DNA of 64,000 nt from Pomphorhynchus laevis. Taxonomy: Eukaryota > Acanthocephala > Palaeacanthocephala > Echinorhynchida > Pomphorhynchidae. Below the pieces are notes generated by a model. It did not search any database and had not been told where the DNA came from. It was given only the letters and a program-made list of their open reading frames with translations. Where the stretch lies: the NCBI GenBank assembly GCA_012934845.2, contig WNNJ02001797.1:62001-126000 (forward strand). Reading direction: 5' to 3'. Shown here in pieces: positions 18,401 through 60,800 of this stretch (its first letter is position 1; every line of letters starts with the position of its first letter). A program made the position numbers and the translations under genes.

Positions 18401-21400
18401 CGAAACGTTCAAATATTAAAATATATTTGATTGCTGTTTATAAGATACTTTTACAATATATAAATAAACAGTTTTACGAGAATCACATCGGAAAGTTTAA
18501 TGTTAGAAGATAGAATATTCCATACGAAATGATAGAAGATCATTTAATGCTAGAAGATATTCCATACGAAATGGAATATTTAATTAGATTATATAATGTG
18601 ATATAATCACATTATATTATAATGTGATAATATTATAATGTGATCACACTATAATGCGTTACAATGTGATTATGGAAGGATGATATATATAAGTCAAGTT
18701 CGGGTGAGCGGAATGAAACAACGTTCAGGATTCCAAATAGAATTCGTAAAGTATTAAATGTAGTTGCCGATTGAAACTGGCTTCGATAAACAAACTGCAG
18801 TATCCATGTCACTTTTAGACGATCAATTTAACACCGAAGTGATGAATTACTCGGCAACACTCATCAGTAAAATGAAGTACTCACTGTTCGTTTCGGTTGT
18901 ATATTTGACAATAAAAGAAGGTATTTCTGACACGTTGCTTAAAAGTCTGAGGATTTCGCTCTCGAATCAGAACATCTCCTGTGCAGACCATCCTTATTTA
19001 CTCAGCAAAGGTTGATGTGGATTGATCGCTTCACTCATTGAATCCCAAACTGTATTCGGGATATATAAGTTAAGTCAGGATGTGCTGAAGGAAACAACGG
19101 CCAGAATTCCAAATGAAACTCGTAAAGTATTAAATGTAGTTGCCGATTGAAACTGACTTCGATCAACGAACTTCAGTATCCATGTCACTTCTAGATATGG
19201 AGCCTACATGTCTAGATGTAATATAAATTACATCTCCATATATATATTTATATATATATTTATATATAAATATATATTTATATATATAATTTGTTGTTAC
19301 ACCTGCCCTGGGACACACAATGGTGTACTCGTAAATAAATCACTATGTTTTCCTCATGAAGAGGCATAAACACCAGGCAGCATTCTATATATCCTCATCA
19401 GATCAAGAAATAGAACCGAATTATTCTCGCAATATTCAAAGTCGCTACGTATGCCCAGTCATCCTATGTGTGACGACAAACTTCAACAACGGTATATGCG
19501 TTTCGCTCTAACGGAGCTCATCAGTACCGTTACTTTAATAATCATCTATAGGCACCTTAACACACGCTTTAACAATGTCTAAAGCTCGAAAAACAGAACT
19601 ACCCTTAATCTGAATCATCAGAGGAAATTTAGCATAAGCTCTGTGCATGACAGTGCGTATTGCGGTTTAACCATGCATCAGGCACTAAATTCCTTTTAAT
19701 AGAAATGCTGTTTTACAGGGACACTTTAAAGTGTAAAAAAGATACAATTCAGGTCAACAAGAAATAATATAAATTATTTAGTGTGAGCTCTTCACAATCT
19801 CTTCAGTTCCGCCACGAGCGGCTTGTGTCCAAGCTCGCCACATCCTCCCCGCCGGCGTCTACCTGGCTTGTCTCCTTTGCCGTATTTGCAGCTGATTCGG
19901 TTGGCGCGTCCAATGCTTGCAACGGAACCCCACATGATTCGCTTTCGACTGATGATAGTCGAGTTAATATACCAGCGATATCATTGTATGGTTCAGTATT
20001 GAACATACGACGCTTGGGTGTTTCCATTATCGTCTGTGGGGCATCAGATAGTGGGTGGTTGCGTCCATTCAACGACGCTAAGATTGCCCGAGCATTTCCG
20101 CGCATGAGGGCCAACGATGCTCTTTGGAATAGGTGATCTACCGTTTTATGATATTCGATCCCAGTTGTGGCGGATATCTGTCTTGCTATCGATCGCATGA
20201 GACGTTCGCCTTGGTCGTTCCAGCCCCCATACGTCTCTACTACTGCCGGTATAAATTGATAACCAGCGGACTCCATACGTGCTCTATACTTCCTCTCCTT
20301 GACATTGACTGCATACATTGTCGCTGCATAGCCTGGCGTTATCGATGCGTTTGCTATGTACGCTGATTGTTGTGGATGTGTTACAGCGAAATCAGCTGCA
20401 CGAGGAGGGTCCCCATGAATCAAAACGTATGCAGGTCGTTCACGAAGGTCTGGTATAAGGTTCCTTACCTCCAAAGCGACATGCATTCCTGCAGATTGAG
20501 CGGCATGAAAGACCACATCGCGAATTCCGTTGTGTCGCAGTCCCGGGTAACCCCCATATTGGCAGGTCAGCGCATGTAGGCCGACTGAATCAGCGGGGAG
20601 AAAGCATCGCCCACACCGATCTCCAGGTGAAAATAGAGGCGCACCAAGCCAAAATCGAGTTAAGGCGCAAAACTGCGAAGGGGGAATGTCTTTAAAGTGT
20701 ACAAATATATAAAATATAAATTGTTGTTACACCTGCCCTGGGACACCAAGCGGTGTACTCGTGAATAAATCATTAGGTTTTCCTCGCAAGGAGGCATAAA
20801 TACAGGCAGCATTCTATATATCCTCATCAGATCAAGAAATAGAACTGAATTATTCTCGTAATTTTCAAAGTCTCTACGTATGCCCAGTCATCCTATGTGT
20901 GACTACAAACTTCAACAACGGTATACGTGTTTCGCTCTAACGGAGCTCATCAGTACCGTGACTTTAATAATCATCCATAGGCACCTTAACACACGCTTAA
21001 ACAATGTCTACAGCTCGAAAATCAGAACTACCCTTAATCTGAATCATCGGATAGAATTTAGCATAAGCTCTGTGAATGGCAGTGACTTAAAGTTTAACCA
21101 TGCATCAGGCACTAAATTCCTTTTAATAGAAATGCTGTTTTATAGTGACACTTTCAAGTGTACAAATATATGTAATATAATTTGTTGTTACACCTGCCCT
21201 GGGACACTCAATGGTGTACTCGTAAATAAATCACTATATTTTCCTCATAAAGAGGCATAAACTCCAGGTAGCTTCCTATATATCCTCATCAGTGTAAGAA
21301 ATAGAACAGAATTATTCTCGCAATATTCAAAGTTGCTACGTATGCCCAGTCATCCTATGTGTGACGACAAACTTCAACAACGGTATACGCGTTTCGCTCT

Positions 21401-23778
21401 AACGGAGCTCATCAGTACCGTGACTTTAATAATCATCCATAGGCACCTTAACACACGCTTTAACAATGTCTAAAGCTCGAAAAATATATATATTTTAATT
21501 TATTATATATATATTCACATGCACGTCAGAATCGACTACCGGGGTGCTTAAAAAAATAATCGTACAATAATTGACGGGGGTATATGAGCCGAAATCTCTT
21601 TACTTGTGTAAATAAATTAATAGCCTGCTTCTCGATTAATTCATTAATTTATTCGTTTTAATATTTTTAAAATAATTTTTTTGCTTACAAGTATATTACT
21701 ATTTTTTAATATTATATATAAGTATTTAGATAAAATTTGACCAAGCTTTATTTGCGATTTATTTAAAAACGTTTTCGGGTTACCCCTTCGTCAGTAGCAC
21801 AACACAATATTCTACAACCTGTACGTAGTACATATACACATATACTATGTGGTAGACATGGAAGAATCTACACTATGCAAATTTAATATTTTCTTTTTAG
21901 TGATCTAAATTTAATTTTTTCTTCGATAGTTCAGTCATTAATTGCGCAGTCTAATATAGTTGCCTTTTTCTGCAATGTAAATTTGTTAGTTTACCGCTGG
22001 TTATCTTTATTTCAAAAAAAGGTGGTAAAACTTACTCTGAATATGGCTAGCCGCCTTATCCCAGATATCCTTCTTCCTTTTGATCTGATACATACTTAGG
22101 TTGCTTCATATTTTCATTGAGTCACCAGTTTCTCCTACAAACTGTACATAACAGACGGTTTTATTCTCTTATAACTATATAATTCCTTTTAGTTTTGCAT
22201 ATATTTCAATTCTGAATTTTGTATTTTAGCCGAGTTGATACACTATTAAAATTGGCTAATGGTGACATGTCTGCACATGTTTTGCAACGTTCGTCACCAC
22301 AGTGTTCTGAACTGTTTTCTTTCTATTTCATTTGAACCTTTTTCATGGAAACTAGAGCTCGTTATAATTTATTTATCTTTCTTGGTGGTCGGTGACAAAT
22401 TTTAACATTCCTGTTTTCGATAACTGTTGTTTGTGTTGACTTTTTGATCGCAGATTGAATGACTTTATCATCTGTTTAATGAATGAAGGATTACATTCTA
22501 TAGATATTCTAATTGGCTGATCTACTGTTTGCTCAGTAATTAATAGCGCTTTTCTGTTTTTCTATTTAAATTTATTAATGACCACTTGAATTTGCCGTCG
22601 TTTATATCCTCGTCTTATTAAATCCTCATACAAACCGATCGTAGGTGATCGGTTTGTATGAGGAGGAAGTCATCATCTCGCGAGCATATTTTTAATCCGT
22701 CGTACCTCATTACATATTAAATTTCGTTTAATTTGCGGGGGTGGTAACTAGAAGCGTGAAGGTATACGGGCTTCTACGTTGGTTATCTAAAAACGCGTGT
22801 GTAGAGTGTAATTTTCCCGGAATACCTCAATTCCTATAAATGAAACCGTTTCTTGCAAAATATGTTCTAACTTAAACTTTAATAAGCTCTTGCAATTCAG
22901 ATTTTCCAAGCAAGCTCATTATATTTATTGTATGGTATACAATATATAAATATGTTATATAGTATGCAATATATTGTGTATTTTGTGTTTATTTGTAGGT
23001 TATGGAGAAATTATTAAAAAATTAATTATTGAAATTAGTTTAAATAATAAATAATACTTATCAAAACAGTAACTTAATTAATAAATAATCTAGATATGAA
23101 TATTAATTCAATTCACACAATAATTAATCCGACAAGATTCGCCAAATTAAATTCATTTTGCAATATTTTTTGTTTAAAGCTGAAGCAGCTACATCTGACA
23201 GTAGGTGGCATCCGATAAGTGGAGACATCAATGAAACAGCATATCAGGACGTTGATATGGAATTAGCTGGAAATCACTCTGATTGTCAGCTATCTTCGTT
23301 AGAAGAAAAGTGCGGAATGTCAAGAGGAAACTCAAGAGCATGCCGAAACGTTCGTGTGATATCTTCGTCATCAGATGGAAGCGACATTACTCTAACGAAT
23401 GAATACTTTATTCCAAATAATAATTATTTATTCAAATGTGAATCTAATATAGTACCTGAAATTAACAACGACAATTTTTATGTCAGTTCATCCGGTAAAA
23501 CTGAGAATAATGACTCTGATGAATCTTGGAGATTATCGTCACCGAGTAGTGAATTCGACGAATGTTGTAAATTAGTAAACAGTGCAAATTGCCAATTTCC
23601 AAACAATGTTGGTCAAGAATCAAATCCAGATGAACGGATGTCTAGCAAACCTGTTATTACTGAAAGTCATAAGGATTCCGATGTCTACTACTGCTCCGAA
23701 GCGTTTGATACTGATTCTGATGACGTAAAGTCGGATGATAGCAAAGATCCAGATTATGTATTACCAAGATCGTTTTAA
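3391..23778 (+). CDS. Multi-exon host gene, family not recognised (overall span; exons listed separately)
   Basis: Nine exons can be chained with AG/GT borders and matching phase: 3391-3482, 4450-4551, 9073-9210, 9258-9347, 11191-11711, 11767-11798, 14418-15449, 15503-15568, 23180-23778. Phases agree at every junction (0,0,0,0,2,1,1,1), which random ORFs would not do. The first exon starts with two bases of a split codon, so the gene begins further upstream. The product is hydrophilic. The N-terminal 110 residues look helical; the rest is Ser/Asn/acidic-rich, with SUMO-interaction-like motifs (ILVVDSDEE; VRVISSSSDGSD) and psi-K-x-E sites (IKVE, IKNE). A nuclear, SUMO-linked role is inference only. 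A missed exon in the 9.3-11.2 kb intron is possible. Confidence 0.72.
4450..4551 (+). CDS. Host gene exon 2
   Basis: A T-rich tract ending in AAAG precedes the exon and a consensus donor GTAAGT follows. It encodes 34 residues (KFQRIIEMSFDDLIKEIQHI...), phase 0 on both sides, amphipathic and probably helical. Confidence 0.68.
4552..5937. other. AT-rich intron sequence
   Basis: Long runs of A and T with short AT palindromes; no coding or RNA feature seen. Confidence 0.5.
5938..6234 (+). pseudogene. Broken small ORF in host-gene intron, unknown
   Basis: An ATG at 5938 opens a frame (MDNRIVQNKNEKLYVNDL...) that ends in TAG near 6058; a second frame, open from about 6052 to 6234 (SQAVSSLISLIKSHINT...), looks like its continuation after a frameshift. 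Hydrophilic, no recognised domain. It lies shortly before a LINE RT on the same strand and may be a remnant of that element's 5' part, or of an unrelated retrogene. Confidence 0.35.
6546..8325 (+). pseudogene. LINE reverse transcriptase (Jockey/I-type group), frameshifted
   Basis: The first frame (6546-6875) has NNKAAGPDQLCVEQIK, the usual RT motif 0/1 region; the protein continues in another frame from about 6835 with YKGKGD...NSYRGIALLN, SEQFGLRPHRSTVDAI, VNFKKAFDSVNRE (motif A; usual DF is NF here), GVMQGDPLSPIFFS (motif B) and LYADDLAI (catalytic). Near 8130 another frameshift leads into a CFFCGDRC...SHVFKCP cluster, the CCHC finger seen at LINE C-termini, ending in a stop near 8307. The endonuclease is not visible. 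The element sits in the 4.5-kb intron between host exons 2 and 3, in the same orientation. Confidence 0.85.
8326..9072. other. LINE 3' remnant and AT-rich intron
   Basis: The first 150 bp keep the composition of the LINE and may be its 3' UTR; the remainder is AT-rich intron with no feature seen. Confidence 0.45.
9073..9210 (+). CDS. Host gene exon 3
   Basis: Acceptor TTATTTGCAG, donor GTGAGT. It encodes 46 residues (LLSSGLNPKCCFDMLGNG...) in phase 0 and ends with a helical stretch (LIQSIQTLRTTIVEYLTAS). Confidence 0.75.
9258..9347 (+). CDS. Host gene exon 4
   Basis: A very short intron (47 bp) separates it from exon 3. Acceptor TTTGTTTAG, donor GTAAGT. It encodes 30 residues (FEEYSKGIVKEVDRLDLLRS...) in phase 0. 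Confidence 0.75.
9348..11190. other. AT-rich intron
   Basis: No convincing exon seen. A near-palindromic ATCATC/GATGAT cluster lies around 10930-11000, and a TTGTTCTAGAGAG motif occurs twice near 9660-9705. Low-complexity AT tracts dominate. Confidence 0.45.
11191..11711 (+). CDS. Host gene exon 5
   Basis: Acceptor CAAATTTTAG; donor GTATAA inside an A run. Phase 0 start, phase 2 end. It carries NEILVVDSDEEFE, a hydrophobic core followed by Ser/acidic residues as in SUMO-interaction motifs, then two psi-K-x-E sites (IKVE and IKNE). The middle (THVKNSNISENDVYALTF...) looks folded and helical. The frame continues past the donor to a stop at 11766, so intron retention would end the protein. Confidence 0.72.
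11767..11798 (+). CDS. Host gene exon 6, 32-nt microexon
   Basis: AG at 11765-11766 and GTTAGT at 11799 bound a 32-nt exon that converts phase 2 from exon 5 into the phase 1 needed by exon 7, adding about ten residues (EHSPRRNAMK). The phase match is the main support. Confidence 0.6.
12225..12600. repeat. Local duplication with CACGTG-containing palindromes
   Basis: ACTACAAAGTTTAT followed by ATATCACGTGATC occurs at 12226-12255 and again at 12530-12555. Between them are further ATCACGTGAT and GTGATCAC palindromes. The TTATTTTCAAAT block near 12407 recurs near 12920. Confidence 0.6.
12656..12877 (-). pseudogene. Orphan ORF of unknown origin
   Basis: A 73-aa frame with a mixed, non-repetitive composition (NRYVEYIIERVVSSSDCEVK...). 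The VVSSSDCEVK stretch recalls the SUMO-interaction-like VISSSSDGSD of the last host exon, so it could be a fragment of a related gene copied in opposite orientation. No start or splice evidence. Confidence 0.3.
13517..13858 (+). pseudogene. C-terminal fragment of Penelope-like RT ORF
   Basis: An uninterrupted 113-aa stretch beginning MNIKLTSIKTNFNLYCKDN and ending SGKFLWMDNK-stop. The same C-terminus occurs at 43272-43529 (minus), and the region just upstream matches RT copies at 32272-32562 and 36345-36608. It is the domain after the RYIDD catalytic core; the catalytic part is lost from this frame. Confidence 0.75.
13926..13990 (+). ncRNA. Conserved interleaved-helix (pseudoknot) RNA in Penelope-like 3' UTR, copy 1
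   Basis: Perfect complements: GGCCCC (13926-13931) with GGGGCC (13957-13962); CTGCTATG (13933-13940) with CATAGCAG (13975-13982); AGGAG (13949-13953) with CTCCT (13986-13990). All three pairs interleave. The same sequence appears at 33398-33462 and 43140-43204, and a diverged one at 56916-56979. Confidence 0.6.
14418..15449 (+). CDS. Host gene exon 7 (large)
   Basis: Acceptor GTCTTTAG; donor GTAAGG after GCAGGG. Starts with two bases that complete the codon from the microexon and ends with one. It encodes 343 residues: a basic N-terminus (FKIYYDKFVNWCHTRVTD...), a long Ser/Asn-rich, Cys-containing middle (CMTDCKNCSNN; CFRNCNIPCACN), and a strongly basic patch (NKRKKRKPVRRP) that resembles a nuclear localisation signal. 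No named domain recognised. Confidence 0.75.
15503..15568 (+). CDS. Host gene exon 8
   Basis: A 53-bp intron precedes it; acceptor CGCTATAG, donor GTAATG. Phase 1 on both sides. It encodes 21 residues including NTFCCKTQCDE. Confidence 0.65.
15619..15750 (+). CDS. Possible alternative terminal exon, SUMO-interaction-like motif
   Basis: After a TTAG near 15627 the frame that fits exon 8 phase is open through LIDDFVILDFSSKVDEDT to SVKQ and a TAA at about 15748-15750. DDFVILDFSSKVDED resembles a SUMO-interaction motif (hydrophobic core plus Ser/acidic), as in exons 5 and 9. Most of it lies inside the right arm of the inverted repeat, and the same peptide is encoded on the minus strand of the left arm at 2637-2755. 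Could be an alternative 3' exon or a fossil; no transcript evidence. Confidence 0.35.
15635..16205. repeat. Right arm of the ~0.57-kb inverted repeat (partner 2188-2753)
   Basis: Reverse complement of 2188-2753 with scattered substitutions only, for example GTCATT versus GTTATT near the inner edge. Beyond about 16205 the two sides diverge into unrelated AT repeats. Confidence 0.85.
17535..17640. mobile_element. Short MITE-like element with terminal inverted repeats
   Basis: ATTGGAGCTGGATCAAA at the left and TTTGATCCAGCTCCGAT at the right are inverted copies flanking a core with TTTCGCTAACCTCTGTTAGC. The layout and recurrence at five or more sites fit a non-autonomous DNA element; no transposase is present here. 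Confidence 0.55.
18382..18405 (+). ncRNA. Hammerhead-like half motif (Penelope pLTR relic)
   Basis: CTGATTGA, then GGTT...AACC able to pair, then GAAACG: the catalytic-core order of a hammerhead with one extra base in the CUGAUGA box. No matching stem I/III partner seen, so probably inactive. Confidence 0.35.
18680..19200. repeat. Direct repeats of a Penelope-LTR-like unit
   Basis: TAAGTCAAG...ATTCGTAAAGTATTAAATG...ATTGAAACTG...TATCCATGTCACTT occurs at about 18690-18815 and 19065-19195. The first copy continues into an ACTCATCAGTA segment similar to the tandem repeats at 34.7-35.5 kb. The flank at 18590-18680 is a cluster of ATCACATTATAATGTGAT-type palindromes. Confidence 0.55.
19290..19790 (-). 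mobile_element. Hammerhead-bearing ~460-bp repeat, unit 1 (interrupted at its right end)
   Basis: Begins with TTGTTGTTACACCTGCCCTGG, as in the units near 20.72, 21.18 and 34.12 kb, and contains a hammerhead core at 19489-19530 on the minus strand. Its right end is cut by an RLE-LINE fragment; the CTTTAAAGTGTA block at the break recurs at 20690. Confidence 0.7.
19489..19530 (-). ncRNA. Type I hammerhead ribozyme, copy 1
   Basis: Minus strand reads ACGGTA-CTGATGA-GCTC-CGTTA-GAGC-GAAA-CGCA-TA-TACCGT. Stem I (ACGGTA/TACCGT) and stem II (GCTC/GAGC) are perfect and both core boxes are intact. The stem III tetranucleotide is CGCA instead of the self-complementary CGCG of copy 3, so stem III is weakened. 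Confidence 0.75.
19795..20695 (-). pseudogene. RLE-LINE 3' fragment: zinc cluster plus restriction-like endonuclease
   Basis: Open on the minus strand from about 20690; the upstream part has no ATG. Seen in order: CGRC...HALTC (zinc-binding), GLRHNGIRD, then a PA(Y)VLIHGD...AADFAVTHP endonuclease-like core, then an AVVETYGGWN block. Known members of this invertebrate RT family have RPAD in place of the RPAY seen here and end with a similar VETYGNW block (recalled). The first 237 aa after 20516 have no stop. It lies between two hammerhead repeats, apparently inserted into that array. The RT domain is absent. Homologous C-termini occur in the elements at 38.9-39.6, 45.9 and 60.8-61.5 kb. Confidence 0.8.
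20700..21160 (-). mobile_element. Hammerhead-bearing ~460-bp repeat, unit 2
   Basis: Full unit, head to tail with the next one: the TGTTGTTACACCTGCCC start recurs about 460 bp later near 21183. It includes conserved blocks CTCATCAGATCAAGAAATAG and GGCACCTTAACACACGC and one hammerhead core. Confidence 0.75.
20918..20959 (-). ncRNA. Type I hammerhead ribozyme, copy 2
   Basis: Same 42-nt layout as copy 1: ACGGTA/TACCGT stem I, CTGATGA box, GCTC/GAGC stem II, GAAA box. Stem III reads CACG. Confidence 0.78.
21165..21490 (-). mobile_element. Hammerhead-bearing repeat, unit 3 (partial)
   Basis: Shares the first about 310 bp of the unit, including the hammerhead, then breaks off after TAAAGCTCGAAAA into TATA repeats. 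Confidence 0.72.
21380..21421 (-). ncRNA. Type I hammerhead ribozyme, copy 3 (best match)
   Basis: Minus strand: ACGGTA, CTGATGA, GCTC-CGTTA-GAGC, GAAA, CGCG, TA, TACCGT. All invariant core bases are present. Stem III is the self-complementary CGCG, too short to close alone but able to pair between two molecules, as in known dimeric hammerheads of animal retroelements. Predicted cleavage is after GUA. Confidence 0.85.
21491..23179. other. Intron sequence with Penelope-type terminal relic
   Basis: 21773-21794 (minus) reads CTGACGA, GGG...CCC, GAAA, the hammerhead-like motif common in Penelope pLTRs. A perfect 17-bp inverted repeat with 6-nt loop lies at 22624-22663. No coding sequence seen. 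Confidence 0.5.
23180..23778 (+). CDS. Host gene last exon
   Basis: Acceptor TTGTTTAAAG; starts with two bases completing the codon from exon 8 and ends with TAA. About 199 residues, hydrophilic: VRVISSSSDGSD (SUMO-interaction-like), repeated acidic/Ser stretches (DSDESWRLSSPSSEFDE; DTDSDDVKSDDSKDPDYV), no folded domain recognised. A likely disordered C-terminal tail. Confidence 0.78.
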
Positions 23779-24295: not shown

Positions 24296-25045
24296 GTTAT
24301 TTACAATTTATTGCTTATCTACTGTTTATTTCATTCAATTACAATTTATAATAATAAGGATTTTGTTATGAAATTATATTGAAGGAAATAAACAGTAAAA
24401 AACAATAAATAGTAGATAAAAGATAAATTGTATTAAATGAAAAAACAGCAGATAAACAATAAACAGTAGATAAAAGATAAATTGTATTAAATGAAATAAA
24501 CAGTAGAAAAACAATAAATAGTAGATAAAAGATAAATTGTATTAAATGAAATAAACAGTAGATAAGCAGTAAACAGTATAAAACAGATAAATTGCATTGA
24601 ATGAAAATTACATTAGATAAGCTATAAATAGTAGATAAAATATAAGTTATATTAAAGGAAATAAACAGTAGAAAAACAATAAATAGTAGATAAAAGATAA
24701 ATTATATTAAAGTAAATAAACAGTAGAAAAACAATAAATAGTAGATAAAAGATAAATGGTATTAAATGAAATAAACAGTAGAAAAACAATAAATAGAAAA
24801 TAAAAGATACATTGTATTGAATAAATAAACAGTAAAATGCAATAAATAGTAGATACAAGGTAAATTGTATTACATGAAATAAACAGTAGAAAAACAATAA
24901 ATAGTAGATAAAAGATAAATTGTATTAAATGAAAAAAAACAGCAGATAAGCAATAAACAATAGATAATAGATAAATATTGTATAACATATAAATTGTATT
25001 AAATGAAATAAACTGTAGATAAGCAATAAACAGTTGATATCTTAT
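24296..25045. repeat. AT-rich minisatellite (~55-62 bp units)
   Basis: A dozen or so imperfect head-to-tail copies of AAATAAACAGTAGA-AAAACAATAAATAGTAG-ATAAAAGATAAATTGTATTAAATG. The apparent minus-strand ORFs here are an artefact of the repeat. Confidence 0.85.
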
Positions 25046-33950: not shown

Positions 33951-34104
33951 GTGAGAGTGTGTACTATTGGGGATGATCGATTAGGCAAAATATACAGTGG
34001 GAGGAGATATGTTTGGTTATCATGGGAGGATCCACATTATTTTAGACTTGTCGGGGGTTTAGAACAAGATGGAGATTGGAGAGACTCCAATTATAAACTT
34101 CATG

Positions 34105-34560
34105 TGTACAAATATATCAAATATAAATTGTTGTTAAACCTGCCCTGGGACACCAAACGGTGTACTCGTGAATAAATCATTAGGTTTTCCTCACAAGGAG
34201 GTATAACACACCAGTCAGCATTCTATATATCCTTATCAGATCAAGAAATAGAACCAAATTATTCTCGCAATATTCAAAGTCGCTACTTATGCTCAGTCAT
34301 CCTGTGTGTGACGACAAACTTCAACAACGGTAGACGCGTTTTGCTCTAACGGAGCTCATCAGCACCGTGACTTTAATAATTATCCATAGGCACCTTAACA
34401 CACGCTTAAACAGTGTTTAAAGCTCGAAAAAACGAACTACCCTTTATCTGAATCATCGAAGGGAATTTAGCATAAGCTCTGTGCATGGCAGCGCGTATTG
34501 CAGTTTAACCATGCATCAGGCACTAAATTACTTTTAATAGAAATGCTCTATAACAGGGTA
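34105..34560 (-). mobile_element. Hammerhead-bearing ~460-bp repeat, solitary unit 4
   Basis: Full-length relative of the 19.3-21.5 kb units, from TTGTTGTTAAACCTGCCC to AGAAATGCTCTATAACAGGG, with 5-10 percent visible differences. Confidence 0.72.
34327..34368 (-). ncRNA. Type I hammerhead, copy 4 (core mutated)
   Basis: Minus strand: ACGGTG, CTGATGA, GCTC-CGTTA-GAGC, AAAA in place of GAAA, CGCG, TC, TACCGT. Stem I retains a G-U pair; the cleavage triplet is GUC. The lost G of the GAAA box should inactivate it. Confidence 0.7.
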
Positions 34561-34734: not shown

Positions 34735-35466
34735 GGTCCAGGATTCCATTGGAATTTGGTAATATGTTGAAAGCTACTGTCGGAAATTGACTGGACTTTA
34801 TTCAACGATCAACATATCATTCGTCACTACTAGACGTCATAGATGACTGGCAGCGCTCATCAGTATTATGAGCCATTTCGATGATGTTTCAGCTGCCTGC
34901 GTGACTTTGAAAAGAGAACATTTCCGATAAATTACATCAGTTTCGGTGTCAAAAAGCTGGTAAAATGGATACTTGATTATCAGTCTATCTCTATCCATAT
35001 CAGGCGATCATTTGTTGCTGCATCACCTCGTTTGTTTGGTTCTTTCAGAGGATTCGGCATATGTATAATTAAGATTCCTTCAAAGATGCTTGGTAGCGAT
35101 GGTCCAGAATTACATTTAAATACAGCAATATGTTAAAAGCTGTTTTCGGTCATTGACTGGACTACACTGAACGATCTTCATACTATTCGTCACTACTAGA
35201 CGTCAGAGATGACCGGCAGCGCTCGTCAGTAGTACGAGATATCTATAAGACGTTTCGGCTGCCTGTGTGACTTTTGAAAACGGGCATTTCCGATAAATCG
35301 CTTAAGTTCCAGCGGCAAAAAGCTCGTAAACTGGAAACTTGCTTTTCAGACCATCTCTATCCATATCATGCAAATCATTTGTTGCTGCATCGCGTCATTC
35401 GTTGTACCTTTCATACATCGAACCTTCTGTGGGATTACTCGATCAACTAAATTTTTCTAAAAATGA
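34735..35466. repeat. Two tandem ~366-bp units before a Penelope RT (pLTR-like)
   Basis: GGTCCAG(G/A)ATT...ATATGTTGAAAGCT / ATATGTTAAAAGCT...TTCGTCACTACTAGACGTC...GGCAGCGCTC(A/G)TCAGTA...CATTTCCGATAAAT recur at a spacing of 366 bp. On the minus strand each has CTGA(T/C)GAG and GAAAC next to a conserved GGCAGC/GCTGCC complement. Tandem terminal repeats before the RT are usual in Penelope-like elements. Confidence 0.65.
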
Positions 35467-35855
35467 AATTGATAATGATTCAATAATGGTTACTATATAT
35501 GTGGAAGCGTTATACACATCCATTGACCATGAATGCGGAATAAACGATGTATTTCAATGTATAAGAAATCACAATTGACCGAACAACAAAATGAATTTTG
35601 TAAAAGATGCAATTGAGATAGTTCTGAAGAATAATATATTTCAATTTGATGGCCAGATATACCTTACAGTTAAGAGGATCAGCGATGGGTACTCCCATGG
35701 CGCCATCATACGCAATTCTATTTATCCATGCGTTTGAACAACTCGCGCTTACGACATTAACGAATCAACCCATACAATATATCCGGTATATTGACGACAT
35801 ATTTTGCTTATGTAAAAATACTAATGATGCTCAAGAGCTCATTGACACTTTTTAA
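35339..35855 (+). pseudogene. Penelope-like RT fragment (Penelope/Neptune type)
   Basis: 35339-35578 carries the palm start (VTIYVEALYTSIDHECGIND; motif A has E where D is usual); after a frameshift 35646-35855 carries LRGSAMGTPMAPSYAILF and IQYIRYIDDIFCL (catalytic YIDD). The downstream linker and GIY-YIG domain are missing on this strand; the sequence ends near 35860. A separate GIY-YIG fragment of opposite orientation lies at 37.0-37.3 kb. Confidence 0.8.
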
Positions 35856-35994
35856 CACTGATGTGACATGAAGACCATTATTCGTTGCATTAACCATATC
35901 ATATTAACCTATTTATTATATTCTGTTTGTTTGTAGATTGTTCAAATAAAGCTGCATAAATCGCTTTCATTACAATTTATTTGGACAATTGTGA

Positions 35995-36335
35995 TCTATG
36001 GACCGAATTCTCAAACCCGAAACACTCGTCGCAGATCTTAATGATCCACAATCGCCTATGATATAAATGCATTGGAAACAACGGTTCAGTCAATTTCTAC
36101 ATTCCATAGTTGATATCACAGATGACAATAAGATCCATATACGCGTGAATCACATTTCACCATCTCTTTATCAGCACATTTCAAATGTCGACGATTACAA
36201 CACAGCAATTCAAACCCTTGACAGCTTGTTCGTCAAACCGAAGAACGAAGTTTTTGCTCGATTCAAATTGAGTTCATGCAAACAATCAGATTCGCAGTCT
36301 ATCGACCAATTCATCCAAGCGTTAATTCTTAAAAT
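35995..36335 (+). pseudogene. LTR-retrotransposon gag fragment
   Basis: Open frame with RILKPETLVADLNDPQSP and, from 36067, WKQRFSQFLHSI...YNTAIQTLDSLFVKPKNEVFARFKLSS...SIDQFIQAL, the pattern of Gypsy-group capsid regions. Cut at 36335 by a Penelope-like fragment. Confidence 0.65.
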
Positions 36336-36980
36336 TTCATTATTTTATGTATTATATTTTATATTATATGGTATGCATGAATGCTCATGCAAAAATATGT
36401 TTCTTGTAAATTTAAATATGTAATCTTTACGATATAAATTAATAGTAGTTTTAGTTAATGTTAATTTAATGTTAATATCTAGATATACACCTTCTTTATC
36501 ATTAATATTGGTTTTATTAAGAATGAGGCTACCTGGATAAATTTGTTCACTAATTGAATAAAAATCATTAGAATTAAATACACATATATCATCAATGTAT
36601 CGAAACATATATTTATATTGTTTAGATTTAGTTTTTATATCATAAATATAACATATTTAAATTTCAAGAAACATTTTTGCATTAGCATTCATGCATGCAT
36701 TACAATGCAAAATATAATACATTAAATAATGAAATTTTAAGAATTACCAAAATAATGTCATCTTTACGATATAAATTATTAGTAGTTTTAGTTAATGTTA
36801 ATTTAATGTTCATATCTAGATATACACCTTATTTATCATCAATATTGGTTTTATTAAGAATAACACTTTCTGGATAAATGTGCTCACTAATTGAATAAAA
36901 ATTATTAGAATTAAATACACATATATCATCAATGTATCGAAACATATATTACATATATTTATATAGTTCTTTCACCACTG
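36335..36980 (-). pseudogene. Rearranged Penelope-like RT pieces
   Basis: 36345-36608 (minus) has FRYIDDICVFNSNDFYSI...IYPGSLILNK; 36650-36745 is a short inverted (+) copy of 36330-36420; 36750-36980 is again minus with the same RT segment. The result is a local minus/plus/minus mosaic, all from the family at 32.2 kb. Confidence 0.7.
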
Positions 36981-37015
36981 CCGTTGATGTGTATAGACTC
37001 AAAAAATAACCGTCT

Positions 37016-37564
37016 TTAATAATTTGATTGTTTTGCAAATATTTTGTTATCATCGAATTCAATATTATGTCTTTTCATGATGGAATGGTTTAAAACAGCA
37101 GATGAATTGTCCCCTTTCCTTAGAGCATTACGATGTTCTTTAATTCTAAGTTGTAATGGTCGTGTTGTCTGACCCACGTATGTAGCATCACAATCTTTAC
37201 ATTTAATCTCATATACGAGACCTAAATTTTGCTGAGATAAGGGTCTCCGTTTGAACATGGATGCTAGACACCTAATAGGTGGACAGGACACTGTAGGACG
37301 TGATGACGTATGTCGTCTAATACCATCTTAGAGTTAGTTCAGGCTACGGTTGTCAACGAATGACGATCGCAAATATATTTTAGTTTTTGCTTGGTCTTTT
37401 TTGTCATGTATCGATGTAAAAAATATACTCTTCGACTTTCGATCTGCCTGGGTGATGGCCCATTTGGGAAAGTCCCGATTTTTAAGTTTCGACTTAATAA
37501 TCAAACTTTCAGTCAACCGGGCACATTTCTCTGAGCAAATTTGCAAAGACACATATATCATCAA
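37016..37564 (-). pseudogene. Penelope-like GIY-YIG endonuclease fragment
   Basis: 37334-37564 encodes the post-RT linker (KNRDFPKWAITQA); after a frameshift 37016-37291 encodes the endonuclease: LVYEIKCKDCDATYVGQT (GIY-YIG variant with the CxxC of Penelope-like elements), RLQ-like RPLQLRIKEHRNAL and SAVLNHSI..H. It would nick target DNA for priming. The RT half of this copy is not adjacent. Confidence 0.82.
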
Positions 37565-37858
37565 TGTATCGAAATTGTATCATCAATGATTCTAGTATAT
37601 ACTAGAAATACTTAAAAATCGTTATTTATTTTAATATATTTCATTTGCAATGCATGAATTTTTAATCAAAAATATATTTCGTACAATGAAATTTAATTTT
37701 GATATACAAGTAGGTTATTGCAAATTACCTGCATTGCTTGAGCACCCAAGCTTACTTATTGAAAGTGATAATTTTTTATTTTTATAAAAATCCATATAAA
37801 TTCACAATAACTTCACATTCGTTTTACTTAACGAATAAGTAATAAACACAAACAAAAG

Positions 37859-38015
37859 TCATTAGTTGGCTCTTTCTTTGAAAAAATAAGAAAAATAGTC
37901 ACATCAATACACATCAGAAAGAGTGTATTCTGAAGAGGCCAATCGCATTTGCGAAAATTCAAATTTGGTACTATTTTTCTTATTTTTCTCGAAGAAAGAG
38001 CAAACCAATGATTAT
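37859..38015. mobile_element. MITE-like unit with ~40-bp terminal inverted repeats
   Basis: CATTAGTTGGCTCTTTCTTTG...AATAAGAAAAATAGT at the left and ACTATTTTTCTTATTTTT...AAGAGCAAACCAATGAT at the right are inverted. The core has TTCAGAATACACT. Partners at 62394-62550 (arm copy) and, diverged, 55633-55820. Confidence 0.55.
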
Positions 38016-38547
38016 ATTCTCTTAGAACGAAAATTTAAAAGACAAAACAAAAGTGTGTGGGCGTGAAATTTTACAAGTTTTATCGATTTGTATAGAACTA
38101 AAATAATATATCTAACATTGGGTGCTCGAGCAATGCATCAGGTTACTTTGCACTATAATCTGGTATCGAGTTCATCGTACTAGTCACCCGAAACGATATC
38201 TCGAGCATCTTTTTTGCACTTTAGATATGTAAATGTTATGAAAACTGCTCGTTTTGTTTGAACCGATACTTTAAACGTCTAATATTTATGACAATATACC
38301 CATATCTTAAAAATTTCATTTTAAAATTTCCGATTTTTATTTTTGATAATTATCAGCTCTTTAACTTAGTCTACGTATTTTATGCTCTATATAAATTAAA
38401 CGATAATGCTATATCAAATAGATGATAGAAAAATATAATTAAACTATAATAAACAACAATTAATAAATAATTATTTATACGAAAAATACAAAAAGAATAG
38501 AATTATCCATTATGTCAGCTTAAATACTAATGCAGTCCGTCGTCTAT

Positions 38548-41500
38548 TCAGGCAGCGCAAGAGATGCCCTCGGTTTCTGATAATTCTGCGTTTTTACTCG
38601 ACTCCGTATTCAGAGGAGTGACCGCCTCACCGTACAAATCGCGGCTATATTCTTGCTGTAGACAACGCTCGGCAGCTACATGAACGCTACAACCATCTAC
38701 AGACTGGAAATTATCTTCCCTGTTATATTCGCTTTGGTCTCTGTATGCTGTCACGTTGTTGAACGTTTTCCGCTTTGGGAGCGAAACCACAAGTATTCCT
38801 CGGTTTTATCCAAGTACTTACTAGACAGTCGCTTGTCACTCGCTCGTACAACACACGGAATTCCAAAATTTTCGAAATTATCGGTACTGGCGTGTACTTT
38901 TATTCCTATTAGATTTGAAATTTCTAGTTCCTCACTACTGCAATTCTGTTCATTTCCCTGTTGCAGTAATATTTGTTGTTTGATCCGTCAACAATGGATG
39001 TTGACGGGTGCAGTGCAAAAAGGCGATATTGAGGATCCTCATTGGAATTAATAGACACTCCATTCCAGCTGTTGTCGTCATCGGGGTGGGTATTCGGGAG
39101 AGCCTTGGCAATCCCTCTCATTAGCACGATCGATATTCGCTGAAATGATTCATCAGCTACCAGTGAATAAGGGATGTTTTGACGAGCTGCAAGGTAGCGC
39201 GCTATTCTACGGATTAGACATAGTCCGCCAACTTTTCAGTCCCCATAGGTCTCAATAACTGCAGGGGTAAAAATGTAACCATTTTCCTCCATGGTATGTG
39301 GCTATTTTCGTGTTTTAACGGTGATTGTGTACTCTTCCGCGGCGTAAGTAGCCTCCGTGCTTGATTTATTTAAGTATGATGACTGCTGAGGGTTTGTAAC
39401 AGCGAAATCAATTGCTTCGGGTGGGTCGCCGTGAAGTACGATATCAGCTGACCGTTCTCTTAAACCCCTGAAAAGATTCAAAACTTCACTCTTAACATGT
39501 AAACTGCTGACTCGGCTGCATGGAATACTGTGTCTCTTACTCCGTTATGACGGATGGTATTCTCTGAATTGACTAGTAAGATCGTGAAATCCGTAATCGT
39601 CAGCATCTAATCGTCAGATTGTCAGCATTTATATGGTTTTTTTTAATATTGGAATTCCCAGCCTATCTTTATCAAGATAAGAAATTCCTCAGGAGGCATG
39701 TTCAACGCGTTAATTTTTGAGAGTGTAGGCTTCAATCATGGGTTCGTGTGAGGACAAGCTACGGCTATTAGTCGTGAATTGACAAAAGAAAATAACGTTT
39801 CAATTAGACGAGAGTGCAACACCTCGTCAATTCTTGTCTCTAATCCAAATTGAGACAAGATTGCTGAGCGAGCACTGTTATCCATAACGAGTTCTTCCAG
39901 ATAGTTGCGGGTTAACGACTCAAAAGTTTGTGAATATGCCGGGAAAGAAGACGAATACATAACCAAGTTGTTTGCAACATTGGCGATGCTGGCTATATAC
40001 GCAACATGAGCATAGACTGGAGAACTTTGCATTCCAAGTACGCTCGTTCCCAATGAAAGCTTTGCTTGAACATGTGAGCGTGAATCTAGTCTAATCCCTA
40101 TCAATTCGTAAAGGACGTTGGTTACGGCTTTATTAAATTGTTTTAAAGCAGAGTGTATAGTCGCAAAGGTAGGTAAACAATCTGCAGATCAGGAATTTCT
40201 GAAATCAAGTCAAGATACCTCATTAATCTCGGCAGAATAATATATTCAAGATGAGAAGCAGTGAATTCTGGACTTCCGATTGGTGATACAAGTATAACAA
40301 AATTCATGGTTTCGTTCAAGGCCATAAATTCAGAGAAATGCGATTGTACAAATAGAATAGCTTCCCGTTGTCCTGTTATCTCAGTATTCCGCCAATTGAG
40401 TTGCAAATTAACACTACCAAATGCACTAGATAAGTGGGACAAGACTTTGATAATGGACTGTGCCGACCCAGCGATTAATCCATCGTCCAAGTACCATTTA
40501 TTAAACTCAATAACAGCAATTCAATTTATACTATCTATGGTCGGTTGAATTAAAAGCGAGAACAAGGGGGGGGGTACAAGAGGGTCACCTTGTTGGACTC
40601 CACATGCTGAATTTAAGGATTCCTGACCTAAAATTCGAAAATGCGAAGGTCTTTCATAACATTAACACACCCACGCTGAGCACTCTGGAAATTGACAATC
40701 GACGGCTTGAATAACTACACCACGACTTAGTGAATTAAAGGCATTGCGTACGTCAACCTTACACCACACACAATCTGAATTATTAATTTGCTCGTTGTTT
40801 TTGAGTTTGGCCCCATGAATGATGAGTTCCATGCCGTTCGAAGTCGACACTTTGACCTGATGAGGGTTAAGAGTGGTGGATAATTCTTTTCGCAAACTCT
40901 GACATATACATTTTGAACACAGACGACCGAGCGTTTCACCACCTGCAATTGGTCGGATCCCTACACATTGCTCGTTTAGCGCAATCAGGTCAGCATCAGC
41001 AAGGTAATCGGATAACTCTCGAGGCGCTAGCATACCTATCAACTGATTCACAAGGTTCGTGAGACGCCATAGAAGGTTTCCATGATCAGCCGATATCATG
41101 TTCTGTAGATGTTCAGGGCCTAAACCCAAACATCCAGGAGATGAATATTCGGGAAAAGAGACTATGAAGCAATGACTGCCTCATAATCTACTGATATTGA
41201 TTGGGATCTTGGTGGCATAAGTTTAATCTTAGTACAAGTTACCGGATGCAGAATCTCCAGCTTATTTCTGACCAGCGGTGTAGAGGCGCAAATTCCATCA
41301 GATGTGAGTCTCCGTATTGCCTTACTGAAGTCGCCGATTAGTGCGAGATCAATAACCCCTTTTTGCGAGTTAGATTTGCTTAAAATCTTTCCAGATGATT
41401 TTGACTTGGGGATTCCGGACCTAGCATATGAACAGGCCAACGGAAGCAAACTACGTAAAGCACGCGATTCTATTAATGAAAACATGTCCGCTATGCGTTT

Positions 41501-41561
41501 TTTTGATGTTTCTTTCTCGTCTTGTTTCGTATTCGATCACATAAATAAAACAGAGTTTTAG
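38548..41561 (-). pseudogene. RLE-type LINE (YLDD RT, endonuclease tail), dead copy in left arm
   Basis: On the minus strand in order: N-terminal region (41485-41162, MFSLIESRALRSLLPLACS...), fingers and motif A (41129-40662: VGIRPIAGGETLGRL, KVDVRNAFNSLSRG), motif B with QQGDPL near 40.6 kb in a broken frame, the WYLDDGLIAG catalytic segment (about 40.5 kb) then 40490-40143, thumb (40104-39736), RHNGVR near 39.55 kb, a (D)IVLHGDPPEAIDFAVTNPQQS-type endonuclease core near 39.45 kb, and an AVIETYGDW block near 39.25 kb. A C run near 40570 and several stops break it. Confidence 0.82.
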
Positions 41562-42800
41562 AACGCATAGTAGGGCAGTCCAGCTTTACCCTGATTGTTG
41601 ACACAATGCATCATTGATAAGCGAGGACATTAGATGAGCAGCGCGCACGCAGTGACCATGGTATTCGTTTTATTGTTGATGCATTATAGGACTACACTTT
41701 GTTCAAAATATCAATGCTTTGATCAGAATACGTGGAAGCGTCGATATTTGGAGTAGTTATAAGGGATAATTGATTACTCATGGTATCATTCAACTGTCGA
41801 ACTAAACGTGGTTCGCATCAAAAGCCCTAACATCGACTACCATTGACTTTGTGCACTCGTAATCTTCCTTTCTTTGTCAAAGCGTACGGTCTTGATCAGA
41901 TCGCGTACGTTCCAGAAACCATTGACATATTCGTTGATTGTGTGTCGATTGATTATTCGTTGATTGATTATTTGTGTAATAATTTGATGTAATTAGCTTA
42001 AACACTTATAAATTTTCTTGTCGGCACAATATAAGGACCTAAACACAAAAATAATTCGTATGTTATTTATCTCAAACTTTCTTTTTTAAGATATACAAAA
42101 GCTGCTGTAGTAAGCGAAGGTAATATACAATTCGAGATCTGGTATATTCAGAACTTTGACAACAGTGAGAATATTGTTTGACAAATTGTGTGTTTAAGCT
42201 GTTAAAATTTTTGTTCATAAAAATATTTTGTACATAATAAATTTTATTTAATTTGTATCTAAAAGTATAAATTGAATATTTAAAATTGAAAACTGAAATT
42301 TAACAATCAATATTTATGAATTGACTAATGAATAACATATGATGTATCTAAATAAGTATTGAATGCTATCATTTTTTGTTCCCATTCCTCATCCAAAATA
42401 GCAGCGGTGCCAAATAGATGTTAATGTCGTATTTCCTCTGAAGAAATTGGTTTACCTAGTATCTAATTCTAATACAAAGTATACGATATAAAATATGAAA
42501 TTAGGATAAATCAATTAATGAATACTCGGATATTTAAATATTCTAATTTTAAGATAGATAGATATTCGGAAATAACAGTGTGTCTTAAATATCTAAATAA
42601 AAAACGAGATTATTTCATAAAAATCAAAGATGCAAAAAAGATGCTCGAGATATCGTTTCGAGTGATTAGAAGGTTGAAAACCTGTTACTAATATTGAGCG
42701 ACAAGTAACCCGATGCATTGCTCGAGCACCCACACTAAGTTTTAATTTCATATTTTTATACAAATCGATATAAAATATGAAAATTTACGCCCACAGCTTT

Positions 42801-57207: not shown

Positions 57208-57815
57208 CTAATATTAAATCTATTTAAATTAATATTTAATTCATCACATTTCGATAAGCACAAAAGCTGTGGGTGTAAGTTTTCATATTATGTATCGATT
57301 TGTCTAAAAAATATGAAATTATAACTTACTGCAGATGCCAGAGCAATCGAGTTTACTTTTCGCTTAAATTTAGTAAGAGGTTCACATCCTTCTAATCACT
57401 CAAAACGATATATCGATGAATCTTTTTTTGCATTTTTAATTTTTTGATTTTTATGAAATAAGCTAGTTTTTTATTCAGATATTTAAGACAAGCTAATATT
57501 TTCATAGTATACAATAAATCGGTTTAAACTATTGAAAATAATAATAATTAACTAATATTAAATCTTTTTAAATTAATATTATATTCATCTCATTTTGATA
57601 AGCACAAAAGCTGTGGGCGTAAATTTTCATATTTTATATCGATTTGTATAAAAATATGAAATTAATACTTAGTGTGGGTGCTCGAGCAATGCATCGGGTT
57701 ACTTGTCGCTCAATATTAGTAACAGGTTTTCAACCTTCTAATCACTCGAAACGATATCTCGAGCATCTTTTTTGCATCTTTGATTTTTATGAAAAATTCT
57801 CGTTTTTTTTTATTT
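57208..57815. repeat. Direct ~270-bp repeats at the inner edge of the right arm
   Basis: ACTAATATTAAATCT...AAGCACAAAAGCTGTGGG...TCGATTTGT...GATATATCG / GATATCTCG at about 57208-57480 and 57547-57815; the second copy runs into the right arm. Confidence 0.75.
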
Positions 57816-60800
57816 AGATATTTAAGACACACTGTTATTTCCGAATATCTATCTATTTTAAAATTAGAATATTTAAATATCCGAGTATTCATTAATTGAT
57901 TTATCCTAATTTCATATTTTATATCGTATACTTTGTATTAGAATTAGATACTAGGTAAACCAATTTATTCAGATGAAATACGACATTAACATCTATTTGG
58001 CACCGCTGCTATGTTGGATGAGGAATGGGAACAAAAAATGATAGCATTCAATACTTATTTAGATACATCATATGTTATTCATTAGTCAATTCATAAATAT
58101 TGATTGTTAAATTTCAGTTTTCAATTATAAATATTCAATTTATACTTTTTAGATACAAATTAAATAAAATTTATTATGTACAAAATATTTTTATGAACAA
58201 AAATTTTAACAGCTTAAACACACAATTTGTCAAACAATATTCTCACTATTGTCAAAGTTCAGAATATACCAGATTTCGAATTGTATGTTACCTTCGCTTA
58301 CTACAGCAGCTTTTGTATATCTTAAAAAAGAAAGTTTGAGATAAATAACATACGAATTATTTTTGTGTTTAGGTCCTTATATTGTGCCGACAAGAAAATT
58401 TATAAGTGTTTAAGCTAATTACATCAAATTATTACACAAATAATCAATCAACGAATAATCAATCGACACACAATCAACGAATATGTCAATGGTTTCTGGA
58501 ACGTACGCGATCTGATCAAGACCGTACGCTTTGACAAAGAAAGGAAGATTACGAGTGCACAAAGTCAATGGTAGTCGATGTTAGGGCTTTTGATGCGAAC
58601 CACGTTTAGTTCGACAGTTGAATGATACCATGAGTAATCAATTATCTCTTATAACTACTCCAAATATCGACGCTTCAACGTATTCTGATCAAAGCATTGA
58701 TATTTTGAACAAAGTGTAGTCCTATAATGCATCAACAATAAAACGAATACCATGGTCACTGCGTGCGCGCTGCTCATCTAATGTCCTCTCTTATCAATCA
58801 TGCATTGTGTCAACAATCAGGGGAAAGCTGGACTGCCCTACTATGCGTTCTAAAACTCTGTTTTATTTATGTGATCGAATACGAAACAAGACGAGAAAGA
58901 AACATCAAAAAAACGCATAGCGGACATGTTTTCATTAATAGCATCGCGTGCTTTACGTAGTTTGCTTCCGTTGGCCTGTTCATATGCTAGGTCCGGAATC
59001 CCCAAGTCAAAATCATCTGGAAAGATTTTAAGCAAATCTAACTCGCAAAAAGAGGTTATTGATCTCGCACTAATCGGCGACTTCAGTAAGGAAACACGGA
59101 GACTCACATCTGATGGAATTTGCGCCTCTACACCGCTGGTCAGAAATAAGCTGGAGATTCTGCATCCGGTAACTTATACTATGATTAATAAGATGCCACC
59201 AAGGTCCCAATCAATATCAGTAGATTATAAGGCAGTCATTGCTTCATATTCTCTTTTCCCGAATCTACATCTGGATGATTGGGTTTGGGCCCTGAACATC
59301 TACAGGACATGATATCGGCTGATCATGGAAACCTTCTATCGGCGTCTCACGAACCTTGTGAATCAGTTGATAGGTAGACTAGCGCCTCGAGAGTTATCCG
59401 ATTTCCTTGCTGATGCTGAACTGATTGCGCTAAACGAGCAATGTGTAGGGATCCGACCAATTGCAGGTGGTGAAACGCTCGGTCGTCTGTGTTCAAAATG
59501 TATATGTCAGAGTTTGCGAAAAGAATTATCCACCACTCTTAACCCTCATCAGGTCAAAGTGTCGACTTCGAACGGCATGGAACTCATCATTCATGGGGCC
59601 AAACTCAAAAACAACGAGCAAATTAATAATTCAGATTGTGTGTGGTGTAAGGTTGACGTACGCAATGCCTTTAATTCACTAAGTCGTGGTGTAGTTATTC
59701 AAGCCGTCGATTGTCAATTTCCAGAGTGCTCAGCGTGGGTGTGTTAATGTTATGAAAGACCTTCGCATTTTCGAATTTTAGGTCAGGAATCCTTAAATTC
59801 AGCATGTGGAGTCCAACAAGGTGACCCTCTTGTACCCCCCCCTTGTTCTCGCTTTTAATTCAACCGACCATAGATAGTATAAATTGAATTGTTGTTATTG
59901 AGTTTAATAAATGGTACTTGGACGATGGATTAATCGCAGGGTCGGCACAGTCCATTATCAAAGTCTTGTCCCACTTATCTAGTGCATTTGGTAGTGTTAA
60001 TTTGCAACTCAATTGGCGGAATACTGAGATAACAGGACAACGGGAAGCTATTCTATTTGTACAATCGCATTTCTCTGAATTTATGGCCTTGAACGAAACC
60101 ATGAATTTTGTTATACTTGTATCACCAATCGGAAGTCCAGAATTCACTGCTTCTCATCTTGAATATATTATTCTGCCGAGATTAATGAGGTATCTTGACT
60201 TGATTTCAGAAATTCCTGATCTGCAGATTGTTTACCTACCTTTGCGACTATACACTCTGCTTTAAAACAATTTAATAAAGCCGTAACCAACGTCCTTTAC
60301 GAATTGATAGGGATTAAGACTAGATTCACGCTCACATGTTCAAGCAAAGCTTTCATTGGGAACGAGCGTACTTGGAATGCAAAGTTCTCCAGTCTATGCT
60401 CATGTTGCGTATATAGCCAGCATCGCCAATGTTGCAAACAACTTGGTTATGTATTCGTCTTCTTTCCCGGCATATTCACAAACTTTTGAGTCGTTAACCC
60501 GCAACTATCTGGAAGAACTCGTTATGGATAACAGTGCTCGCTCAGCAATCTTGTCTCAATTTGGATTAGAGACAAGAATTGACGAGGTGTTGCACTCTCG
60601 TCTAATTGAAACGTTATTTTCTTTTGTCAATTCACGACTAATAGCCGTAGCTTGTCCTCACACGAACCCATGATTGAAGCCTACACTCTCAAAAATTAAC
60701 GCGTTGAACATGCCTCCTGAGGAATTTCTTATCTTGATAAAGATAGGCTGGGAATTCCTATATTAAAAAAAACATATAAATGCTGACAATCTGACGATTA

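Follow-up and report, generated by a model that had tools for sequence, protein, structure and literature searches.

A retrozyme family with two-site, TA-associated insertion ends in Pomphorhynchus laevis, probably copied by a canonical Penelope-like element

The closest described counterparts of the repeats reported here are the non-LTR retrozymes of animals. According to the available part of Cervera and de la Pena (2020; PMC7229834), they share with ours a type I hammerhead ribozyme (HHR), short AT-rich tandem units, many copies, a highly self-paired RNA and a genome rich in Penelope-like elements (PLEs). The repeats described in that part span 150-450 bp and their RNAs about 170-400 nt, a range that summarises published examples without defining the class; our units measure 462-465 bp. 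Target duplications, if present, are given there as longer than 4 bp. The satellite retrozymes of newt and axolotl are a further counterpart, likened to ours by description: in the same part of the source they have a very short palindromic helix III and are expected to act as dimers, although their units are of 330-350 bp. PLEs are treated there as no more than a strong candidate for copying animal retrozymes, by a route that was proposed and is undemonstrated.

On the side of the enzyme, the accessible part of PMC11167929 describes a purified PLE that starts copying inside its own RNA at two adjacent sites, cuts AT-rich DNA, and cuts and extends both DNA strands. The retrozyme studied here resembles PAc of the green anole, as described in that part, in having an HHR, an AT-rich target and, as predicted for the retrozyme, two neighbouring RNA start sites, and the extension of both DNA strands by PAc is paralleled here by head-to-head pairs. 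PLEs encode a reverse transcriptase (RT) and a GIY-YIG endonuclease, whereas the retrozyme has no recognised open reading frame. The repeats of Pomphorhynchus laevis are a new retrozyme family of a known kind, with units slightly above the published size, and the family has unusually readable insertion ends: the 3' ends fall mostly at two sites, half of these ends beside (TA)n, a feature for which we found no mention concerning metazoan retrozymes in the available part of PMC7229834.

The window, by which we mean the whole stretch of 64,000 nt analysed (contig WNNJ02001797.1, C766 below), contains on its minus strand a head-to-tail array of about 2.7 units of 462-465 bp (19274..21484). The first-pass annotation had reported three minus-strand type I HHRs of 42 nt, and this observation is confirmed: the three were found where it had placed them, at 19489..19530 (copy 1), 20918..20959 (copy 2) and 21380..21421 (copy 3), with stem I (ACGGTA/TACCGT), stem II (GCTC/GAGC) and the CTGATGA and GAAA boxes perfect in all of them. 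The HHR is assigned to type I because the motif opens at stem I. A pattern scan placed the CTGATGA...GAAA cores at 19501-19524, 20930-20953 and 21392-21415. Copies 2 and 3 lie head to tail at a spacing of 462 bp, again as annotated. The CGCG following GAAA proved to be a property of copy 3, copy 1 having CGCA and copy 2 CACG at this place. Helix III is thus the palindrome ACGCGU in copy 3, the only one of the three with the full ACGCGT, and the palindrome is broken in copy 1 (ACGCAU) and copy 2 (ACACGU). Cleavage is predicted between 21386 and 21385 in copy 3 (GUA|UACCGU), between 20924 and 20923 in copy 2 and between 19495 and 19494 in copy 1, all on the minus strand.

The Rfam models recognised these ribozymes poorly. 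The expected model match at 21380-21421 is present at a relaxed threshold but weak and below the cut-off, and no Rfam hammerhead family reached its gathering score anywhere in the window. The best-scoring family, Hammerhead_HH9 (RF02275), gave the three copies 19.1, 17.9 and 16.1 bits (E 0.25, 0.58 and 2.2) at the relaxed threshold, the best of them far from the cut-off of 52 bits. On the whole genome the same model gave at least one match, of 30.8 bits and also below the cut-off (58 scored of 17752 candidates). A loose core pattern matched the window four times for 1.17 expected, a number reached by 2 of 100 shuffles. Isolated folds of the 56-nt HHR stretches did not clearly surpass those of shuffled sequences (z -0.83, -1.34 and -1.70 for copies 1-3). 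The Rfam thresholds miss a hammerhead family that is present here.

The HHR spacings within the array are 1429 and 462 bp. The larger one is explained by a 954-bp fragment that later entered the array on the minus strand (19736..20689) together with a 12-bp target duplication, CTTTAAAGTGTA, which flanks it at 19724-19735 and 20690-20701; without them the spacing is 463 bp. This insertion contains most of a minus-strand open frame of 307 aa (19803-20726), for which no Pfam family was found at E 0.001, and we infer that it is a 5'-truncated non-LTR retrotransposon. A fourth, isolated unit with 89-90% identity to the others lies at 34099..34547, also on the minus strand. In its HHR (34327-34368) the GAAA box has become AAAA and GUC replaces GUA at the cut; the G of this box is G12, the general base of the hammerhead, according to the available part of PMC6155905. 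The window also holds a 55-bp tandem repeat in 11 copies (24371-24976) and an inverted repeat of 5.05 kb with 98.7% identity (37749-42800 / 57607-62659), which includes retroelement pieces and points either to duplication in the recent past or to an artefact of assembly.

Further copies were sought in the genome of the host (249 Mb in 3242 contigs). The HHR 17-mer CGAAACGCGTATACCGT had 391+428 = 819 exact matches, for 0+0 in the reversed control, and a 471-base query around copy 2 had at least 164 matches (39 scored of 1402 candidates). Viral contigs scanned with a 26-base HHR stretch gave 0 matches. Metazoan retrozymes form multicopy arrays of anything between two and a great many units, and the family shows the type I HHR core, short multicopy tandem units, a GC content below 50% (0.377 in the one unit measured) and nearby PLEs with HHR-like motifs. 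When one unit was read three times round, the longest ATG frame had 49 aa in the ribozyme sense and 116 aa in the opposite one, with no recognised ORF; in particular, the RT and GIY-YIG endonuclease ORF is absent from the unit. The retrozyme therefore does not itself count as a PLE, although its ends resemble the products of one. Metazoan non-LTR retrozymes are described as lacking LTRs, a primer-binding site and a polypurine tract. In form our arrays show no LTRs, and this together with the type I HHR excluded the plant LTR retrozyme, which has a type III HHR inside LTRs. In a non-systematic inspection, which included a brief look at L031, no clear case of a target duplication was recognised beside the TA tracts. 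The retrozyme reading of the first-pass annotation was strengthened by the copy number, the head-to-tail arrays and their ends, the strand-specific fold of the unit and a cleavage triplet that ends only in A or C.

The last two points come from signs of ribozyme function. We sampled 127 unit pieces, 90 of them with a whole HHR, from loci picked by similarity to window copies 2 and 3 and not via the HHR 17-mer. The residue 5' of the cut was A in 74 HHRs and C in the other 16, G and U being absent, whereas the other A sites of the unit changed to G (161), T (149) or C (50); this agrees with the GUH rule, the naive P of 8e-5 being too small since the copies are related. Conservation of the HHR core was only a little above that of the unit (0.979 vs 0.954), with a borderline P of 0.057. 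None of 100 shuffles folded as well as the copy 2 unit in the ribozyme orientation (z -3.62), while 18 of 100 did equally well on the opposite strand (z -0.93), each value being for this one unit.

Do these ribozymes still cut? The HHRs might be fossils in an array, transcribed or not, that has lost cleavage. Neither copy 1 nor copy 2 has the helix III palindrome, and the core of copy 4 is broken; in the sample the core was kept in 70 of 90 HHRs, the core and all stem pairs in 49, and core, stems and palindrome jointly in only 45. Copy 3 is intact, however, and locus L010 contains identical adjacent units, so that the family has been active or was duplicated recently. We thus hold the loss of cutting to be unlikely, though it keeps appreciable weight. 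Cleavage as a dimer, which the annotation had raised, is likely given that most HHRs carry a palindrome of 6 bases in helix III (ACGCGT in 79 of 90), and a double hammerhead of copy 3 with a 6-bp helix III can be folded at -27.5 kcal/mol with 0 broken pairs. Against this part of the claim, an alternative pairing of the cofolded copy 3 pair is lower, at -29.7 kcal/mol, and pairings other than the hammerhead were lower in energy than the double hammerhead in 5 of the 5 pairs tried. Copies 1 and 2, without the full palindrome, fare less well: one pair is broken in the double hammerhead of copy 3 with copy 2, and two in pairs among copies 1 and 2.

The ends of the arrays were mapped in 55 loci and in the window, the unit being numbered (u) from the predicted cut. 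After exclusion of ends at locus edges or abutting another retrozyme piece, 58 3' ends (48 loci) and 51 5' ends were usable. The 3' ends were concentrated at u158-159 (n=14) and u196-228 (n=18): together these two bins, which cover 50 of the 462 nt, received 32 of the 58 ends and all other positions 26. The 5' ends were scattered, 7 of 51 falling in the same bins. The bins were defined after the first set of loci had been seen (18 of 32 3' ends) and were reproduced by a second set (14 of 25) of 20 loci from the HHR 17-mer list, chosen since the site stood alone; the 58th end comes from extra loci outside both sets. The near-duplicates L068 and L069 were counted separately, one in the bins and one out. 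Within 8 nt of the cut lay a single 3' end and, of the 5' ends, three, which is about chance level. TA-rich DNA adjoined half of the favoured ends: TATATATA was found within 30 nt outside 16 of the 32 binned 3' ends, compared to 9 of the 51 5' ends and 0.5% of 30-mers drawn at random from the window.

The two end sites are about 48-55 nt apart. Both lie in copy 1 in the stretch 19281..19345 of the minus strand (u158 = 19337; about u206-213 = 19289-19282), and the window array itself terminates at the second of them, inside an AT repeat (19238-19288). In copy 3 they lie at 21173..21228, also on the minus strand, positions at which arrays end at other loci, and a predicted stem-loop UACACC...GGUGUA sits between them. 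This stem-loop was no more stable than shuffled sequences (z -0.62, -1.06 and -0.26), and an alignment of 51 of the 57 copies found has too little variation for covariation.

These ends bear on an alternative, that the repeats are a conventional satellite multiplied through unequal exchange, with the HHR as a passenger and no role for RNA. Long arrays exist, such as that of about 15 units at C664:78572-85624, and neighbouring units are somewhat alike, sharing 86% of subfamily letters (51 pairs) vs 66% for units of different loci. Unequal exchange fits poorly with the numerous short arrays that are scattered through the genome, prefer TA, and have irregular 5' ends but preferred positions for their 3' ends, and it fits poorly with a fold that beats shuffles on the ribozyme strand alone. 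The same holds for the head-to-head pairs L017, L054 and L061, in which both 3' ends are at favoured sites. The other inverted pairs are less regular: L022 is cut by the locus end, its partner's end being placed near the first favoured site, L059, L065, L068 and L069 have one or no end at favoured sites, and L005 and L027 face tail to tail. Overall, we give the satellite reading very little credence.

Many neighbour pairs look copied from one template, and neighbouring units were mutually closest in 22 of 59 cases vs 2.0 by chance (maximum of 8 in 500 shuffles). Other arrays mix subfamilies (e.g., L003, L005, L022, L024, L025 and L062), and one monomeric circle is no explanation for neighbours that differ at many subfamily letters. 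The use of mutually closest neighbours as proof of circles was dropped, because old copies blur the signal and mixed arrays exist.

We then considered the PLEs of the genome. Remains of canonical PLEs lie in the window at 35330..37327. They comprise an RT-like piece on the plus strand (35628-35852), identified by characteristic motifs and by matches to long PLE frames and not by Pfam, and a GIY-YIG piece on the minus strand (37019-37327; Pfam 4.2e-06). The RT piece had at least 150 scored matches in the genome, about a dozen or more of them in open frames longer than 800 aa, and GIY-YIG at least 75 matches, including one or more of bacterial origin (150 of 795 candidates were scored). The Pfam score of GIY-YIG was above the cut-off for the window piece and below it for L094 and L095. 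The bacterial GIY-YIG gene lies at C1660:7878-8102 (L039) of the assembly and belongs to a contaminant or a symbiont; it is presumably UvrC-like. The contig of the window also contains two near-identical pairs of PLE pieces (97628/134017 and 99088/135477 on C766), 36389 bp apart.

The canonical PLEs have HHR-like motifs of their own. In L094, L095 and L097 these are located where one frame has ended and the next, a PLE frame, has yet to begin. In the window, the minus-strand motif CTGACGA-AGGGGTAACCC-GAAAACG, with a 3-bp stem, is followed about 52 nt on by the TA tract TATATATA and marks a probable PLE-type 3' end (21712..21794); the retrozyme array begins 289 nt after it in the same orientation. 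In the collected loci with retrozyme letters masked, there were 21 such motifs vs 3 in the reversed sequence. This masked scan was preferred to a stricter stem rule, which gave 18 motifs of which 7 were diverged retrozymes. The tract followed 8 of the 21 motifs at 35-85 nt, 5 at 120-170 nt and 2 at 200-250 nt, compared to 2.9% of random positions. Genome-wide, GAAACGTT-N45-65-(TA)6 had 132 forward matches (reversed control 0) and 859 reverse matches, a figure that counts one site many times (control 1). The PLEs that co-occur with the retrozyme thus have a similar TA preference.

The young element PLE-A, like the PLE in the accessible part of PMC11167929, shows two ends: a short one, which 14 partner copies arranged head to head have at query position 116, and a long one about 56 nt beyond it. 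These counts come from 40 scored of 131 candidates, among which copies with a TA stretch are favoured. A frame in C56 with homology to the beginning of the L095 frame (31% identity, 8e-24) runs past the long end of PLE-A. Short palindromic head-to-head insertions of PLE type also occur beside (TA)n in L003 (2590-2850) and L099 (1247-1478 and 1510-1780).

The HHR-like motifs that precede PLE frames in L094, L095 and L097 would also be expected if the repeats were pseudo-LTR pieces of an autonomous PLE, with no separate non-autonomous element. The four PLE starts examined had no convincing similarity to the unit, the best match (E 0.005) being of 32 nt at the edge of L095, outside the motif and the ORF start. 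Moreover, arrays of up to about 15 units leave no room for an ORF, and among the loci inspected, in a non-systematic way, we noticed no case of a unit that runs into the ORF of a canonical PLE. The pseudo-LTR explanation is thus highly improbable.

Among 16 PLE motifs of the retrozyme loci and the window, 4 had a retrozyme less than 100 nt downstream, all of them tail-to-tail (L003, L017, L032 and L057). In the first three, the 3' end of the retrozyme is at a favoured site, in TA-rich DNA, 47-82 nt past the PLE motif; in L057 the PLE end meets the retrozyme at u446 with no TA tract. In L070 a tail-to-tail retrozyme lies 145 nt from the PLE motif, and three other motifs have a same-orientation retrozyme 129-289 nt on. 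Counted from GAAAC, the retrozyme sites are at about 163 and 211 nt, the PLE ends mostly at about 47-69 nt. A comparison of the PLE 3' ends with the retrozyme end gave no convincing similarity (best uncorrected p 0.027 in 28 comparisons). A 3' tail common to the retrozyme and PLE-A was thus rejected: with the TA tract included the score was 6/2000, and without it the p was 0.027 over the 28 tests. The TA-inclusive test gave nothing for three other PLEs. The link to PLEs suggested in the first-pass annotation gains independent, indirect support, from the TA-tract ends, the PLE motifs, the tail-to-tail meetings and the two ends of PLE-A. The end pattern suggests target-primed copying driven by a PLE, and the canonical-PLE enzyme class is likely behind the spread of the retrozyme.

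An alternative is that another retroelement is the partner: either a LINE or a very abundant PLE with an N-terminal GIY-YIG, termed Naiad-like here for its permuted domain order. This element has at least 150 scored matches, mostly of equal score, with open frames of up to 908 aa. In L023 and L029 the 3' side of the retrozyme is joined to its coding sequence in the same orientation, as after a template switch, and non-PLE RT frames are common in the window. Naiad-like pieces occur in 14 of the 55 retrozyme loci, however, and two such junctions are possible by chance; the element and the unit have no sequence similarity (best E 0.15, low complexity). Its copies end in ...TTAGCTGATT and, in 11 ends inspected by eye, the TA tract was absent from the next 30 nt. 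The one LINE-like insertion inspected is at the 12-bp target described above and not at (TA)n. We thus set the Naiad-like PLE aside as partner for its different 3' end and the lack of a visible TA tract, and regard movement of the units by it or by a LINE as distinctly unlikely. Other features of this element, which is young and also represented by L085, were seen in passing: a set of three copies in C2634 at distances of about 3.5 kb, an 838-aa piece with no Pfam family at E 1, and, at about 1148-1164 of L053, a 3' end that abuts the interior of a retrozyme array, as if inserted.

We thus consider it quite probable that the repeats form a non-autonomous retrozyme array propagated through HHR cleavage, circles and two-site, TA-primed copying, most likely by the enzyme of a canonical PLE. 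At each GUA|UACCGU the type I hammerheads would cleave minus-strand transcripts, mainly as pairs of units with a common 6-bp helix III, to give 462-nt RNAs. By analogy with published animal retrozymes, a host ligase could close these RNAs into circles. Reverse transcription would begin on the retrozyme RNA 158 or about 206-213 nt past the cleavage site, with a cut TA-rich chromosomal site as the primer. Copying round the circle or along a multimer would then produce head-to-tail units whose 3' end is constant while the 5' end varies, and the most likely copying enzyme would be that of a canonical PLE.

In the literature searched, we found no genomic record of PLE-driven retrozyme insertion. 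We lean slightly towards the view that the genome of P. laevis is such a record, of a coding-free ribozyme circle copied by a canonical PLE enzyme at PLE target sites. If this is true, the two-site initiation, the (TA)n priming, the head-to-head insertions on both strands and the TA-rich sites held in common, tail-to-tail, with PLEs would together be the record of PLE-driven insertion. With hundreds of copies, readable ends and PLEs of like target preference in the same genome, the question of who copies retrozymes is directly testable here.
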